From: Candidatus Pantoea floridensis
GTDB taxonomy: Bacteria; Pseudomonadota; Gammaproteobacteria; Enterobacterales; Enterobacteriaceae
Reading direction: 5' to 3'
Assembly: GCF_900215435.1 (NCBI RefSeq)
Contig: NZ_OCMY01000001.1
Coordinates: 4,030,001-4,094,000, forward strand
Length of the DNA stretch: 64,000 bases
Position 1 is the first letter of the stretch. Every line of letters starts with the position of its first letter. A program made the translations under genes and the position numbers. The notes under the pieces are model-generated. The model worked only from the letters and a program-made list of their open reading frames with translations. It had not been told where the DNA came from and did no database searches. Shown here piece by piece: positions 26,386 through 43,394 of this stretch.

Positions 26386-26477
26386 GCGCTTCGACGGTGG
26401 CTCTACCGAAGAAGAGCACGACATTGCTCACATTGCTTCCAGTATTAGTTGCCCGCACGCTGTGCGGGCTTTTTTTT
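26386..26477 (+). ncRNA. ryhB: RyhB, iron-stress small RNA
   Basis: About 92-nt Hfq-dependent RNA that represses iron-using proteins when iron is scarce. Recognised by the diagnostic core GCACGACATTGCTCACATTG at 26416-26435, continuing CTTCCAGTATTA, which is the seed and Hfq region of enterobacterial RyhB. A 5' stem precedes it (CGGT pairing with ACCG around 26392-26410), and a perfect terminator hairpin with eight T follows. The Fur box and sigma70 promoter sit at exactly the right distance upstream. It lies between sapA and the OtsA-like gene, unlike its yhhX-yhhY location in E. coli. Confidence 0.93.
26451..26477 (+). terminator. ryhB terminator
   Basis: Stem GCCCGCAC (26451-26458) / GTGCGGGC (26462-26469) with loop GCT, followed by eight T (26470-26477). 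Confidence 0.93.
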
Positions 26478-39705: not shown

Positions 39706-40128
39706 ATGTTCTATACCTCAGGAAGATCGGTGTTCGGCGTGACGCTCTACACATTGCTGGAACCGCTGCCGCTGGGCTTTTTCGTTGCGGCCTGGTTTTT
39801 CGATATCCTCTATCTGCAAACCTTCGTCATCATGTGGACCAAATCCGCCAGCTGGCTGATTGCTATCGGTCTGGTGTTGGCCATCCTGCCACGTTTAATT
39901 AGCCTGGTTTATTTATTTCGCGGGGCCAGGTCGAATGAAAAGACCCATTTCTGGCTGTCGCTGCTGGCGATCGTGCTGGCGGTGGTGAACGCCTTTATTC
40001 ATAGCCGTGATGCGTATGCTGTGGTGCCCATGGGCGTCACGCTCTCGACGCTGGTGGTCGCGCTGTTGCTGATCGCTAACGTGCAGTTGGTGCTGCGAGA
40101 TCGCCGCACACAAGGAGGTCGCGCATGA
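39706..40128 (+). CDS. DUF2231-type four-helix membrane protein
   Basis: 140-residue protein with four hydrophobic segments (about 18-40, 48-70, 84-98 and 105-130) and short loops, resembling the DUF2231 family often found beside PQQ- or heme-linked sugar dehydrogenases. AGGGAGAGAGT precedes the ATG. Its stop overlaps the start of the lipoprotein dehydrogenase gene by four bases, so the two act together, perhaps as membrane anchor or electron-transfer partner (inference). Confidence 0.75.
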   Translation: MFYTSGRSVFGVTLYTLLEPLPLGFFVAAWFFDILYLQTFVIMWTKSASWLIAIGLVLAILPRLISLVYLFRGARSNEKTHFWLSLLAIVLAVVNAFIHSRDAYAVVPMGVTLSTLVVALLLIANVQLVLRDRRTQGGRA

Positions 40129-41417
40129 AATATGTACTTAGCGCGATAACGCTCGCGATGTTGCTCAGTGCCTGTGATGACGGGGCACTGATCGATCCGC
40201 AAAAGCAAATTGGTGCTAACCCTGAACTGCCGCAGGCGCAGAACTTCTTTATGCCGCCAATGCAGGTGCCGGAAGGCACGCCGTGGAAAGCCGGCGAAAT
40301 GCCGAAAGTGGCGGATGGGCTGAAGATCGAGAAGATCGCCGATCGGCTACAACACCCGCGTCAGGTACTGGTTCTGCCTAATAATGATGTACTGGTGGCG
40401 GAATCGAATGGTACGCCAAAGCCGACCACCGCGCCTAAGCAGCTGATCATGGGCCTTGTGCAGAAAGCCTCAGGCAAAGGCGGTGAGGGTGGCAATCGCA
40501 TAACGCTGCTGCGCAACGTGAACGGAAAATGGGAGCAGCATCGCTTTATTGAAAACCTCACGGCGCCGTTTGGTATGCAGCTGGTTGGTAACACGTTGTA
40601 TGTGGCGAACGCCGATAGTCTGGTGAAGTTCCCTTACGAAACCGGGCAAACCGAGATACGCACGCCGCCCGTAGAGGTCACAGAACTGCCGGGCGGACCG
40701 ATTAATCATCACTGGACGAAATCGCTGCTTGCCAGCCCTGACGGCAGCAAGCTGTATGTTGGGGTAGGTTCAAACAGCAACGTGACGGAAAATGGTATCG
40801 GCGAGGAGTATCGCCGCGCGGCGGTGCTGGAGGTGGATGCGGCAAGCGGTGCCAGTCGTATCTACGCCAGCGGCCTGCGCAACCCAACCGGCTTACAATG
40901 GGAACCGCAGAGCGGCAAGCTGTGGGCGGTGGTGAATGAGCGTGATGAGATTGGCTCGGATCTGGTGCCGGATTATATGACGTCGGTGCAGGATAAAGGC
41001 TTCTACGGCTGGCCGTACAGCTATTATGGTCAACACGTCGATGAGCGCGCGCAGCCGCAAAGGCCGGATCTGGTTGAGAAAGCGATTAAACCGGATTATG
41101 CACTCAGCTCGCATGTCGCACCGCTCGGCCTGTTGTTCTATGGCGCAGATAACATGCCGCAGTATCGTGGCGGGGCGTTTATCAGCGAACACGGCAGCTG
41201 GAACCGCACGCCGCTTAACGGCTATCAGGTGGTGTGGGTCAAGTTCGAAGACGGGAAGCCGGTAGGGCAGCCACAGCCGGTGGTGACAGGCTTCCTCACC
41301 GACGATCAAAAGCAGGTGCGAGGCTTACCGGTTGGCTTAGCCACCGATCAGCAGGGCGGCGTGTTGATTGCTGATGATGCGGGCAACGCTATCTGGCGTA
41401 TCAGTTCCGCGCGGTAA
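40125..41417 (+). CDS. Sorbosone dehydrogenase-family PQQ lipoprotein
   Basis: 430-residue secreted beta-propeller of the L-sorbosone / soluble glucose dehydrogenase superfamily, members of which oxidise aldoses with PQQ. The N-terminal signal ends in a lipobox, LLSAC (C17), so it is a lipoprotein. Propeller-family blocks include GGEGGNRITLLR, HHWTKSLLASPDGSKLYVGVGSNSN, YASGLRNPTGLQW, DKGFYGWPYSYYG and AFISEHGSWNRTPLNGYQVVWV. Coupled to the DUF2231 membrane protein upstream. True substrate unknown; together with gcd it suggests periplasmic sugar oxidation in this organism. Confidence 0.85.
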   Translation: MKYVLSAITLAMLLSACDDGALIDPQKQIGANPELPQAQNFFMPPMQVPEGTPWKAGEMPKVADGLKIEKIADRLQHPRQVLVLPNNDVLVAESNGTPKPTTAPKQLIMGLVQKASGKGGEGGNRITLLRNVNGKWEQHRFIENLTAPFGMQLVGNTLYVANADSLVKFPYETGQTEIRTPPVEVTELPGGPINHHWTKSLLASPDGSKLYVGVGSNSNVTENGIGEEYRRAAVLEVDAASGASRIYASGLRNPTGLQWEPQSGKLWAVVNERDEIGSDLVPDYMTSVQDKGFYGWPYSYYGQHVDERAQPQRPDLVEKAIKPDYALSSHVAPLGLLFYGADNMPQYRGGAFISEHGSWNRTPLNGYQVVWVKFEDGKPVGQPQPVVTGFLTDDQKQVRGLPVGLATDQQGGVLIADDAGNAIWRISSAR

Positions 41418-41432
41418 TTCATCGCAGATAAT

Positions 41433-41470
41433 AAAAAAGGATTTGGCTTAAACGCCAAATCCTTTTTTTT
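41433..41470. terminator. Bidirectional terminator (dehydrogenase gene / istR-like RNA)
   Basis: Fifteen-bp stem AAAAAAGGATTTGGC (41433-41447) pairing with GCCAAATCC plus T run (41454-41468), 6-base loop, and eight T at 41463-41470. On the minus strand it ends the small RNA with six T. Confidence 0.93.
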
Positions 41471-41527
41471 ATGTTCGCAAACCGGCTGGTAACCGCGCTG
41501 CGAACGGGGTGCTCAGCACTCCTCACA
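41433..41527 (-). ncRNA. istR: IstR-1-like antitoxin small RNA
   Basis: Predicted 95-nt RNA divergent from the tisB-like gene. A strong promoter (TTGAAA, 17 bases, TATTAT) places its 5' end at about 41527. Its first 17 nt, TGTGAGGAGTGCTGAGC, are the exact complement of GCTCAGCACTCCTCACA at 41706-41722 in the toxin leader, because that 17-mer occurs twice in the same orientation. The RNA ends at a perfect terminator. Architecture (divergent, constitutive, 5'-terminal pairing to a site about 80-100 nt before the toxin start) is that of IstR-1 in E. coli. Not verified experimentally; I do not claim primary sequence identity with E. coli IstR. Confidence 0.8.
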
Positions 41528-41533
41528 GAGGCG

Positions 41534-41562
41534 ATAATAAAATGTGCGGCGAGATATTTCAA
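41534..41562 (-). promoter_or_regulatory. Promoter of the istR-like RNA
   Basis: On the minus strand -35 TTGAAA (41562-41557), 17-base spacer, -10 TATTAT (41539-41534). There is no LexA box within it, consistent with constitutive synthesis of an antitoxin RNA. A longer LexA-controlled RNA starting further upstream, as for IstR-2, is possible. Confidence 0.75.
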
Positions 41563-41576
41563 GTTTTGCAATAATA

Positions 41577-41592
41577 CTGTATGGTTATACAG
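41577..41592. promoter_or_regulatory. LexA (SOS) box of the tisB-like gene
   Basis: CTGTATGGTTATACAG is a CTGT-N8-ACAG palindrome, the LexA consensus. It lies 212 bases before the toxin start and upstream of the whole leader, so the toxin mRNA should be induced by DNA damage. Confidence 0.88.
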
Positions 41593-41705
41593 GTGTTGAG
41601 TGACGAGCGAAGCCTCATTGTTTTTCTGATGACTCCAGGGGCGCGGATAGTCAAATCCCGGCAGGTTTCAGGTGGTGCTGGCCTGTGGCTTTCACAATGA
41701 GAGCC

Positions 41706-41722
41706 GCTCAGCACTCCTCACA
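41706..41722 (+). repeat. IstR pairing site in the tisB leader (direct repeat copy)
   Basis: GCTCAGCACTCCTCACA, identical to 41511-41527. As mRNA it is fully complementary to the predicted 5' end of the divergent small RNA. It lies 82 bases before the toxin ATG, where the E. coli system has its ribosome standby site. Such a repeat across a divergent promoter is best explained by RNA-RNA pairing. Confidence 0.8.
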
Positions 41723-41803
41723 CAATGTGCTTAGGCCGTCGGCGGGTGGAGTCAAAGCCCCGGCGGCTGAAAGGCGCGCTCCTATCAGAGGAGAAGGAAA
41801 GTG

Positions 41804-41893
41804 ATGGAAATTGTTCGATTGCTACTGGACTTAGTCCGGGTCATCTTGCAAATCATCGTTGCCCTTTTGCAACTGACCGGTCAGGCGCACTGA
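41804..41893 (+). CDS. tisB: TisB-like SOS-induced membrane toxin
   Basis: 29-codon ORF encoding a hydrophobic amphipathic helix. It opens MEIVRLLLDLVRV, and residues 14-25 read ILQIIVALLQLT; E. coli TisB is also 29 residues and contains ILKLIVAALQLL. Such peptides insert in the inner membrane, dissipate proton motive force and promote persister formation after DNA damage. AAGGA stands five bases before the ATG, and a strong terminator follows. A long structured leader (about 200 nt) with a 23-codon ORF (41629-41700), recalling the untranslated tisA frame, precedes it. The charged pattern (R5, D9, R12, Q16, Q23) fits an amphipathic helix. LexA box upstream, antisense RNA divergent. Too short for routine gene finders. 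Confidence 0.82.
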   Translation: MEIVRLLLDLVRVILQIIVALLQLTGQAH

Positions 41894-41907
41894 CCGGAAC
41901 TTGAAAC

Positions 41908-41936
41908 AAGGCGGAGCTCACCCCTCCGCCTTTTTT
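41908..41936 (+). terminator. tisB-like terminator
   Basis: Stem AAGGCGGAG (41908-41916) / CTCCGCCTT (41924-41932), 7-base loop, followed by TTTT. It lies 14 bases after the toxin stop. Confidence 0.92.
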
Positions 41937-42011
41937 CGTTTGCATCAAAATCCTGCCCGGCAAAAGACGCTACTATCTCAGGCAACTATTTGCACTGCGA
42001 GGAAACGCATC

Positions 42012-43394
42012 ATGGCAATCAAATTTGGCCCCCTCACCGCGCCGGTGAAGTTTAGTGACGTTGAGCCGGTCTCTCTCTCCGATGACACCCTGCTAAAACG
42101 AAAAAATACGCTTCTGGCAGGCATGAAACGGCAGGGTTTTGATAGCCTGGTGATTTACGCGGACAAGGAACATGGGAGTAATTTCGAGTATCTCACCGGA
42201 TTTATTCCGCGTTTCGAAGAGGGACTGTTACTGCTGGACCAGTCCGGACGCTGCACTCTGGTATTAGGCAACGAAAACCTCAAGCTGGCACGTTTTTCAC
42301 GCGTAGCGGCTTCGCTGGTGCACACGCCTTTCTTCTCACTGCCCAATCAGCCGATGGAGAATGAAGTTCCGCTGGAACAGCTTTTCGCTGATGCGGGCTT
42401 AAATAACAGCAACAAGGTTGGGCTGGTGGGATGGAAGATGTTCACGCCCGCAGCGGGAAATGGCCACACACTCTTTGATTTGCCGTATTTCATCGTTGAT
42501 GCCATAAAACGGACGTTGAAAGATGACGCGGTGCTGGAAAATGCCGTCCACCTTTTTATTGGCGATAACGGTGCCAGAACCACCTGTAATGCGAACGAAA
42601 TAGCCCATTACGAATATGGTGCCAACCTCGCGTCGAACTGTATGCTGGATGCGCTCAATGCCATCGAGGTTGGCGTACGTGAAACCGAGCTGGGCGCACT
42701 ACTGAGTGGCGAAGGGCAAGCCCACACGGTGGTAACTATTGCGGCGACCGGCAGTCGTTTCGCTAACGCGAATCTCTATCCAACCTATAAAAAAATACAG
42801 CGCGGCGATCCGCTTTCGCTTACCACCGGTTTCAAAGGTGGCCTCTCAAGTCGCAGCGGTTTTGTCATCGCTGAAGCGAGTGAACTGCCGCAAAGCCAGT
42901 CCGATTATCTGGATCGCATCGCGAAACCCTACTTTGGCGCCGTGGTTGCCTGGCTGGAAAATATTCGCGTCGGAACCCGCGGTGGCATGCTTTACGATCT
43001 TATTGAGCAGGTTTTGCCGAAGCAGCATTTCGGCTGGCATCTTAATCCCGGACATCTGGTGGCGGATGAAGAGTGGATGTCATCGCCGATTTATCCGCGT
43101 TCGGTTGAAGTGCTGAAAAGCGGCATGATGCTCCAGATTGATATTATCCCCGCGGTTGCGGGTTACAGCGGCGCGAGCGCGGAAGAGTGCGTAGCGCTGG
43201 CTGATGCGGCGTTACAAATGGAGATTCGTCACGCCTATCCGGCACTGTGGCAGCGCATTGAGACCCGCCGTCGTTATTTGCGAGAGGTGATTGGCATTCA
43301 GCTCAGCGCAGATGTATTACCGCTGTCGAATAGCGTGGCCTATTTGAGGCCGTTCTTTTTGGCGAAGCATCAGGCGCTGAGCGTGGAGAGATAA
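42012..43394 (+). CDS. M24 (creatinase/prolidase-fold) protein lacking metal ligands
   Basis: 460-residue two-domain protein of the aminopeptidase P/creatinase family: an N-terminal domain (about 1-175, YADKEHGSNFEYLTGFIPRF) and a pita-bread domain. Where the metallopeptidases have two aspartates (IDAG ... GDITR), this protein reads LTTG and LSSRSG, so both are missing; the histidine (HLNPGH) and a later glutamate (AEECVAL) remain. Activity like the metal-free creatinases, or a non-enzymatic role, is therefore more likely than peptidase activity. GAGGA stands before the ATG at 42012; the frame is open 37 codons further upstream but runs through the tisB-like terminator. It converges with the LysR gene (4 bases apart). 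Confidence 0.8.
   Translation: MAIKFGPLTAPVKFSDVEPVSLSDDTLLKRKNTLLAGMKRQGFDSLVIYADKEHGSNFEYLTGFIPRFEEGLLLLDQSGRCTLVLGNENLKLARFSRVAASLVHTPFFSLPNQPMENEVPLEQLFADAGLNNSNKVGLVGWKMFTPAAGNGHTLFDLPYFIVDAIKRTLKDDAVLENAVHLFIGDNGARTTCNANEIAHYEYGANLASNCMLDALNAIEVGVRETELGALLSGEGQAHTVVTIAATGSRFANANLYPTYKKIQRGDPLSLTTGFKGGLSSRSGFVIAEASELPQSQSDYLDRIAKPYFGAVVAWLENIRVGTRGGMLYDLIEQVLPKQHFGWHLNPGHLVADEEWMSSPIYPRSVEVLKSGMMLQIDIIPAVAGYSGASAEECVALADAALQMEIRHAYPALWQRIETRRRYLREVIGIQLSADVLPLSNSVAYLRPFFLAKHQALSVER

Follow-up and report, generated by a model that had tools for sequence, protein, structure and literature searches.

The intergenic stretch at positions 41433-41936 of a 64,000-nucleotide (nt) piece of the Candidatus Pantoea floridensis genome (hereafter the window), between a sugar dehydrogenase-like gene and an M24-like gene, holds a real, conserved locus. 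We read it as a diverged SOS type I toxin-antitoxin built on the tisB/istR-1 plan of Escherichia coli but with a pairing address of its own, and put the probability of this reading at about 0.87. An earlier reading of the same DNA, made from its letters only (the sequence-only reading), had proposed a tisB/istR-1-type system here. Architecture, spacing, the RNA elements of the leader and a weak peptide resemblance support that proposal, and the LexA box, open reading frame (ORF), ribosome site, terminators, divergent unit and 17-nt repeat were all found where it had placed them. The case is carried by the conservation of these parts, by the way the two address copies vary in step, by covariation within a leader helix and by the purifying selection that acts on the peptide, as observed here.

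The two copies of the antisense address change together

The address is an exact 17-nt direct repeat. Copy 1 (41511-41527, - strand) forms the 5' end of a predicted antitoxin small RNA (sRNA) and is the exact complement of copy 2 (41706-41722, + strand), the part of the toxin leader predicted to bind the sRNA and to act as standby region. The longest repeats in 60 dinucleotide shuffles of the region measured 7-11 nt, so the direct repeat described in the sequence-only reading stands. Across 34 aligned Pantoea loci, on which the conservation counts below are based, the address copies showed a mean of 0.59 differences in 17 within their own genome compared to 1.84 between genomes. None of 20,000 random pairings (permutations in which relatedness among genomes is still included) was as low as the own-genome pairing, and the covariation between genomes that had been suggested as a check is therefore present. 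Matched changes in both copies included C to A (L013, L015), CT to TC (17 loci) and C to T (L032, L033).

Identical address pairs occurred in 14/34 loci and pairs with one difference in 20/34. In 19 of these 20 it is position 8 that differs, with an invariant A in the sRNA and variation in the leader. The sRNA base at this position lies inside a small self-complementary stretch (41509-41519) overlapping copy 1, and in L032 and L033 both arms of this stretch had changed together with the leader copy. From this we infer that the sRNA side of the address would be held by a hairpin of its own.

Predicted duplex energies were in line with specific pairing. The 5' end of the window sRNA paired with its own leader at -36.4 kcal/mol (-35.9 for the duplex with address copy 2), beyond the best of the shuffled leaders (-30.7; mean -21.4). 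Among eight modules, cognate sRNA-leader duplexes ranged from -32 to -48 kcal/mol and non-cognate duplexes were all -26 or weaker. The predicted sRNA is ~95 nt long (41433-41528, - strand), with its 5' end placed from promoter spacing and its 3' end at a terminator. As in a divergent RNA of the tisB/istR-1 plan, this predicted 5' end would be complementary to the leader ~100 nt before the start codon. The sRNA also holds CGGCTGGTAACCGC (+ strand 41483-41496), common to E. coli istR, and its GGCTGGTAACC was present in 21/34 loci.

Covariation in the toxin leader and the ribosome-site lock

Directly upstream of the address, the leader carries a hairpin with a GGUGGUG loop (41655-41687, + strand; helix 41662-41666 with 41681-41685). 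The hairpin set comprised 78 sequences, 21 of them distinct, L160 being left out for a 2-nt gap and L012 and L126 having been dropped from the leader motif set as they did not match the motif pattern. In the 17 distinct sequences used for covariation, 97.8% of cells were paired and 34 cells had changed on both sides of the helix, which none of 500 shuffles reached. The covariation score was 0.685, compared to 0.206 in shuffles (0/500 reaching the observed value) and at most 0.168 when the helix was slid. The five outer pairs correspond to E. coli positions 54-58 with 73-77, with +1 placed at L040:338 to fit the bases named in PMC7708055, which makes the window helix the counterpart of stem 2 in the E. 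coli tisB pseudoknot. Stem 2 is needed for tisB activity, as demonstrated by compensatory mutations in the part of PMC7708055 available, and the covariation of five equivalent pairs suggests that this 5' structure has been maintained. RNAalifold applied to the whole leader gave mostly invariant or one-sided pairs. The leader model R1 scored the window at 45 bits, the window sequence being part of its training set.

Further downstream, a predicted anti-Shine-Dalgarno hairpin (CTCCT...AGGAG, 41779-41793, + strand) overlaps the ribosome binding site AGGAGAAGGAAAG (41789-41801, + strand). A CTCC...GGAG lock before the start codon was kept in 34/34 loci, such that sequestration of the ribosome site is predicted to be possible in every locus, and GAAGGAAAGTGATG stood at the ribosome site in 33/34. 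Together, the stem 2 helix, the ribosome-site lock and an address ~100 nt upstream support a standby mechanism like that reported for E. coli, in which ribosomes would load at the site.

LexA box, promoters and terminators

The LexA box CTGTATGGTTATACAG (CTGT-N8-ACAG; 41577-41592, + strand) lies between the two divergent transcription units and is followed on the + strand by a leader of ~200 nt and the ribosome site. The exact pattern was found in 27/34 loci and CTGT-N8-ACA[G/T] in all 34, 221-230 nt upstream of the start codon, whilst five other arm-pair patterns used as a control occurred in none. A box kept in 34/34 loci with an ACA[G/T] right arm is what a LexA operator of the tisB/istR-1 plan would look like. 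The strength of the box and its companion elements comes from their conservation among the Pantoea loci. The sequence-only reading had staked itself in advance on the conservation of the LexA box, ORF and repeat in related genomes, and all three are kept there.

The divergent RNA is preceded by a sigma70-type promoter (-35 TTGAAA, 17-nt spacer, -10 TATTAT; 41562-41534, - strand). This had been called perfect, which overstated it, as TTGAAA-17-TATTAT matches the consensus at 10/12 positions. The -35 was conserved in 30/34 loci and a -10 of the form TANNAT in 33/34. The sRNA terminator hairpin (41433-41468), with a T run on one side and an A run on the other, could serve both the sRNA and the upstream gene, and its pattern was present in 32/34 loci. 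The full pattern of the toxin mRNA terminator (41908-41938, + strand, with the terminator-like site at 41908-41932) was present in 27/34. In this region two terminator-like sites were found compared to 0.9 expected from shuffles. An IstR-2-like second minus-strand promoter (41599-41571) was considered and is not claimed, its -10 seemingly not being conserved among the alignment rows listed.

The peptide is conserved and under selection

The predicted toxin is a hydrophobic peptide of 29 amino acids (aa) encoded at 41804-41893 (+ strand). Its ATG was kept in 33/34 loci, ATG together with a 29-aa ORF in 32/34, and LQIIVAL was present in all 34 translations. Mean nonsynonymous and synonymous divergence over 543 pairs were 0.13 (dN) and 0.54 (dS), and the median dN/dS, taken over those pairs with dS >0.05, was 0.28. 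Variable columns at codon positions 1, 2 and 3 numbered 15, 4 and 20 of 29. These values indicate that the ORF is under purifying selection, and RNA constraints may act on the coding strand. Two loci stood apart: L004 (G023:C10) has an ATT start codon and in L025 (G015:C1) the toxin frame extends to 38 aa.

Occurrence in Pantoea and beyond

A DNA search matched 34/36 same-genus genomes (own included) and 0/24 from other families of the order. A peptide profile matched 55/61 Pantoea genomes, as did a covariance model of the leader hairpin that used no peptide and was trained on leaders including those of Pantoea. The six genomes without a match were identical for profile and model, and four of the six measure 1.4-2.9 Mb. 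The search for the peptide in related genomes that had been recommended thus returned it genus-wide. The 34 named loci from the peptide alignment bear Pantoea names, bar two from Enterobacter, one from an Erwinia sp. and one from an Enterobacteriaceae metagenome-assembled genome. A broader profile, which includes E. coli TisB itself and paralogues, matched 85/392 genomes of the GTDB family and 31/154 genera at E <= 0.05.

Searched as DNA, the window locus had no match in phages or E. coli genomes and three partial matches in plasmids. Outside the family, the leader model gave weak matches (E 0.004-0.036) in five genomes. Three of the weak matches (L252, L253, L254) had no LexA box and no repeat score >7, and L256 and L257 did not match the search motif pattern. 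The NCBI lineage assigns Pantoea to Erwiniaceae, and TisB is said to be confined to Enterobacteriaceae in the available sections of PMC11449926 and PMC8969498.

Second loci and related plasmid modules

In two Pantoea genomes there is a second tisB locus, E. coli-like and with an address of its own: L174 (G012:C61) and L175 (G002:C28). A LexA box is present in L174 and absent from L175, which also shows one address mismatch. A third, L176 (G011:C11), is the same second locus minus the LexA box and leader hairpin, with a single copy of the address remaining.

With the Pantoea paralogue L263 as query, 36 plasmid records were retrieved, some with partial or flanking matches only, and 12 of these were examined. 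Hairpin, repeat and a TisB-like ORF were present in 11/12 plasmid regions, and in all 11 of these modules the 250 nt preceding the hairpin contained no exact LexA box. The carriers included Rts1 (IncT, Proteus), an IncFII plasmid of Mixta and plasmids of Klebsiella, Serratia, Erwinia and Pantoea. Among the genes listed for the 12 regions, in partial tables, none was annotated as a toxin. The plasmid modules have the same frame with other addresses. On Rts1 (L266, NC_003905.1, around 1501-1795) the TisB-like module adjoins a gene for plasmid SOS inhibition protein A.

The twelfth plasmid region, L272, resembles L176 in having a single address with the left flank of copy 1 and the right flank of copy 2. 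The flanks of L176 agreed with those of L174 at 70/80 and 78/80 bases; those of L272 agreed less clearly with L263 (61/89 and 56/82 aligned columns). Judged from these flanks, a collapse by recombination between the address repeats would account for L176 and probably for L272. In another genus, the SOS copies L239, L243 and L244 have mutually different addresses, with one to three mismatches between the two copies of each, and from these differences it follows that addresses can change.

Further relatives were encountered. L177 (G024:C4, about 1078-1620) is a candidate module with an exact 21-nt repeat and a hydrophobic 23-aa ORF but without the GGTGGTGC motif; L080 (G343:C78) combines a related peptide with an exact address repeat of 20 nt, and its leader is likewise without GGTGGTGC. 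In 31/5426 E. coli genomes, a chromosomal stretch (e.g. NZ_CP083503.1 186852-187135) was 77% alike to about half of the plasmid-type module L263, with no annotated feature in the ten matches listed.

Proposed mechanism and alternative explanations

By analogy with E. coli, we infer LexA binding, transcription, processing, standby loading, toxicity and repression to proceed as follows. LexA would repress the toxin promoter until DNA damage lifts the block. A hairpin in the long toxin leader would hide the ribosome site, so we propose that ribosomes must first load ~100 nt upstream, at a standby site adjoining the hairpin or pseudoknot with the GGUGGUG loop. Following the tisB/istR-1 plan, translation would be limited to mRNA that has been processed to a shorter 5' end. 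In undamaged cells the ~95-nt sRNA, made constitutively and read away from the toxin, would pair through its first 17 nt with the standby site and block loading, perhaps with cleavage by RNase III. After damage, mRNA would exceed sRNA and the 29-aa amphipathic peptide would be made, insert in the inner membrane and lower the proton-motive force, resulting in growth arrest and tolerance.

Several results weigh against this reading. Taken alone the LexA box is weak, as one exact match per 64 kb compares with 0.62 expected and 45/100 shuffles had one, and a clear -10 behind the box, as in E. coli, was not found. One true address mismatch occurred in 13/34 loci and a G-U wobble in seven more. In single-sequence folding the window address was mostly paired (0.19-0.22 unpaired), a prediction that speaks against a full-length RNA in which this site is simply open. 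Two of the five covariation measures fell within shuffles (both-side-changed pairs, 340/500; further pair types, 65/500), and raw codon differences over all pairs comprised 3218 nonsynonymous and 2897 synonymous changes. The kinship of the peptide to TisB, taken alone, also appears weak. D9 and Q23 align with TisB aspartate 5 and glutamine 19, with a common IL..IVA..QL core. In the available text of PMC11449926 lysine 12 and glutamine 19 are essential in E. coli TisB; of these two, glutamine 19 has a counterpart and lysine 12 has none, its position being taken by glutamine (Q16), with an arginine one helix turn away. The Pantoea-only profile A1, run on 295 family genomes, had no clear match to TisB of the E. 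coli type. The window peptide had no match to TIGR04459 or PF13939 at E <= 10; TIGR04459 matched 2/11 members of A2, the window peptide not among them, and neither any of 60 Pantoea genomes nor any of the controls, E. coli included, exceeded its cut-off. The Rfam istR model (RF01400), which scored E. coli istR at 150 bits, gave no match at locus L001 (E <= 0.5) or across 40800-42400 (E <= 10). Judged by the Pfam, NCBIfam and Rfam models, the locus falls outside the curated TisB and istR families. The weak peptide link, the raw codon counts and the two covariation measures bear more on kinship than on mechanism.

Among the alternatives, we give next to no credence to the repeat and ORF being chance features of a conserved intergenic region. 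The number of LexA matches would permit this, but address co-variation, the shuffle tests of the repeat, leader covariation, purifying selection and the conservation of the elements all speak against it. It is conceivable, though unlikely, that the locus began as a plasmid addiction module, settled in the chromosome, gained a LexA box and is still used mainly for its own maintenance rather than for damage tolerance. The plasmid peptide L263 was the closest of seven compared (z 6.7-7.8), the leader and 3' end are common to the plasmid modules, these have no LexA box (0/11), and parM, ParA, umuC or a replication gene lay within a few kb in 6/12 plasmid regions; however, presence throughout the genus, the same neighbour in 57/64 loci and a LexA box in 34/34 argue for a function in the host.

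That the peptide is non-toxic or has a dual function, tuning membrane or SOS functions with the antisense RNA as a dampener, we regard as decidedly unlikely. Glutamine in place of lysine 12 and the lack of a counterpart to the charged TisB C-terminus would fit such a role, and the available part of PMC3567139 describes TisB and DinQ as having effects other than toxicity. Against it stand the counterparts of TisB glutamine 19 and aspartate 5, the arginine near the lost lysine, and an address lock under selection, which fits a dangerous product. Descent from dinQ/agrB or dqlB, with the likeness to tisB owed to shared architecture only, strikes us as very unlikely. In E. coli dinQ, too, LexA controls the promoter, the leader carries a GGGTGGTGCCG motif, a 25-nt repeat forms the address and the ORF is about as long. 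However, z-scores place the window peptide nearer to TisB (4.0-4.7), with DinQ at 1.9-2.6 and DqlB at 0.8-1.6, and the leader model favours E. coli tisB (45.3 bits) over dqlB (26.0) and dinQ (15.0, from a match to only part of the model), though of the three only tisB was in its training set. In addition, the portion of PMC3567139 available describes two LexA operators and two sRNAs for dinQ, compared to one of each found here. A diverged SOS type I toxin-antitoxin of the tisB/istR-1 plan therefore remains our preferred reading.

Gene neighbourhood

The sugar dehydrogenase-like gene (GSDH) occupies 40125-41417 and the M24-like gene 42012-43394. When flanks of 1.5-3 kb were searched, the dehydrogenase gene adjoined the module in 57/64 loci and the M24 gene in 8/64, some of the 64 loci being the same contig twice. 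The setting given in the sequence-only reading is thus stable on the dehydrogenase side and unstable on the M24 side. In L035 (G030, about 790-880), the toxin 3' end and terminator are partly duplicated in tandem downstream of a full locus. Elsewhere in the window, a RyhB sRNA gene (26412-26476, + strand, 70.5 bits) was the sole match above an Rfam gathering score; near-matches to ncr1015, STnc320 and others were far under theirs and were taken as chance.

Novelty and significance

TisB serves as a model of how DNA damage induces dormancy and persistence. A diverged version found throughout Pantoea supplies natural variants of the regulatory elements and tests which residues of a pore peptide matter. 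The natural cognate and non-cognate pairs bear on how antisense specificity changes without killing the cell, and the plasmid relatives may represent a class of plasmid maintenance genes that has been overlooked. Literature on TisB in Pantoea or Erwinia, on Pantoea type I toxin-antitoxins and on plasmid TisB homologs, judged mostly from titles and abstract openings, did not report this locus. The suggestion that it may be new would hold for the Pantoea locus, whilst the tisB/istR-1 plan itself was known. As far as is visible, the Pantoea locus, its own address and the co-variation thereof, the evidence from evolution for stem 2, and the plasmid relatives outside SOS control are new. Specific pairing in duplicated zor/orz loci (PMC3919570) and stem 2 of the tisB pseudoknot (PMC7708055) were already known from the available parts of these sources.

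Comparison with known systems

The paralogous copies zorO/orzO and zorP/orzP are told apart by their pairing region, as described in the accessible part of PMC3919570, and pseudoknots have been predicted in zor and shoB in that of PMC7708055. The accessible part of PMC3919570 makes no mention of SOS control for the zor systems; the sole sequence comparison was a weak OrzO-P match to the L174 sRNA (37 bits, cut-off 60).

E. coli dinQ/agrB has in common with the Pantoea locus LexA control, a divergent sRNA, an address in the form of a direct repeat, the GGTGGTGC leader motif and a small membrane peptide. It differs in peptide and address, as well as in the number of operators and sRNAs given above. 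The DinQ-like plasmid type I toxin dqlB shares the leader hairpin, an exact address repeat (20 nt) and a small hydrophobic ORF, but is plasmid-borne, encodes another peptide and has no exact LexA box in copy L260.

The likeness to E. coli tisB/istR-1 extends further. Both loci encode a 29-aa amphipathic peptide, with a LexA box 220-250 nt before the start and a divergent sRNA whose 5' end would pair ~100 nt before it, and both have the stem 2-equivalent helix, the anti-Shine-Dalgarno hairpin and 14 nt of sRNA body. Distances from the start codon in the window and in E. coli tisB were -227 and -252 for the LexA box, -133 and -154 for GGTGGTGC and -98 and -123 for the address. Among E. coli-type loci (L115-L173), the hairpin was present in 58/59, L152 being without it; these 58 had an exact LexA box in 57, the repeat in 58, the lock pattern in 53 and ACACTG in the address in 57. 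The Pantoea address, in contrast, is unrelated in sequence to that of E. coli. The Pantoea locus lies beside a sugar dehydrogenase gene, whereas E. coli tisB lies between ilvB/ivbL and emrD; it lacks the TATAAT that follows the LexA box in E. coli; and its peptide is offset by four residues relative to TisB and has no charged C-terminus.

The leader motif, shared by plasmid dqlB and weakly by dinQ, suggests that these systems may have one origin. At what we consider about even odds, tisB/istR, dinQ/agr, dqlB, the Pantoea locus and the plasmid modules not annotated as toxins would form a single family. Its constant RNA frame would consist of the GGUGGUG hairpin or pseudoknot, an address slot, a ribosome-site lock and a terminator, combined with a fast-changing membrane peptide and an exchangeable, pair-specific address of 17-25 nt, and the family would move between plasmid addiction and SOS control.
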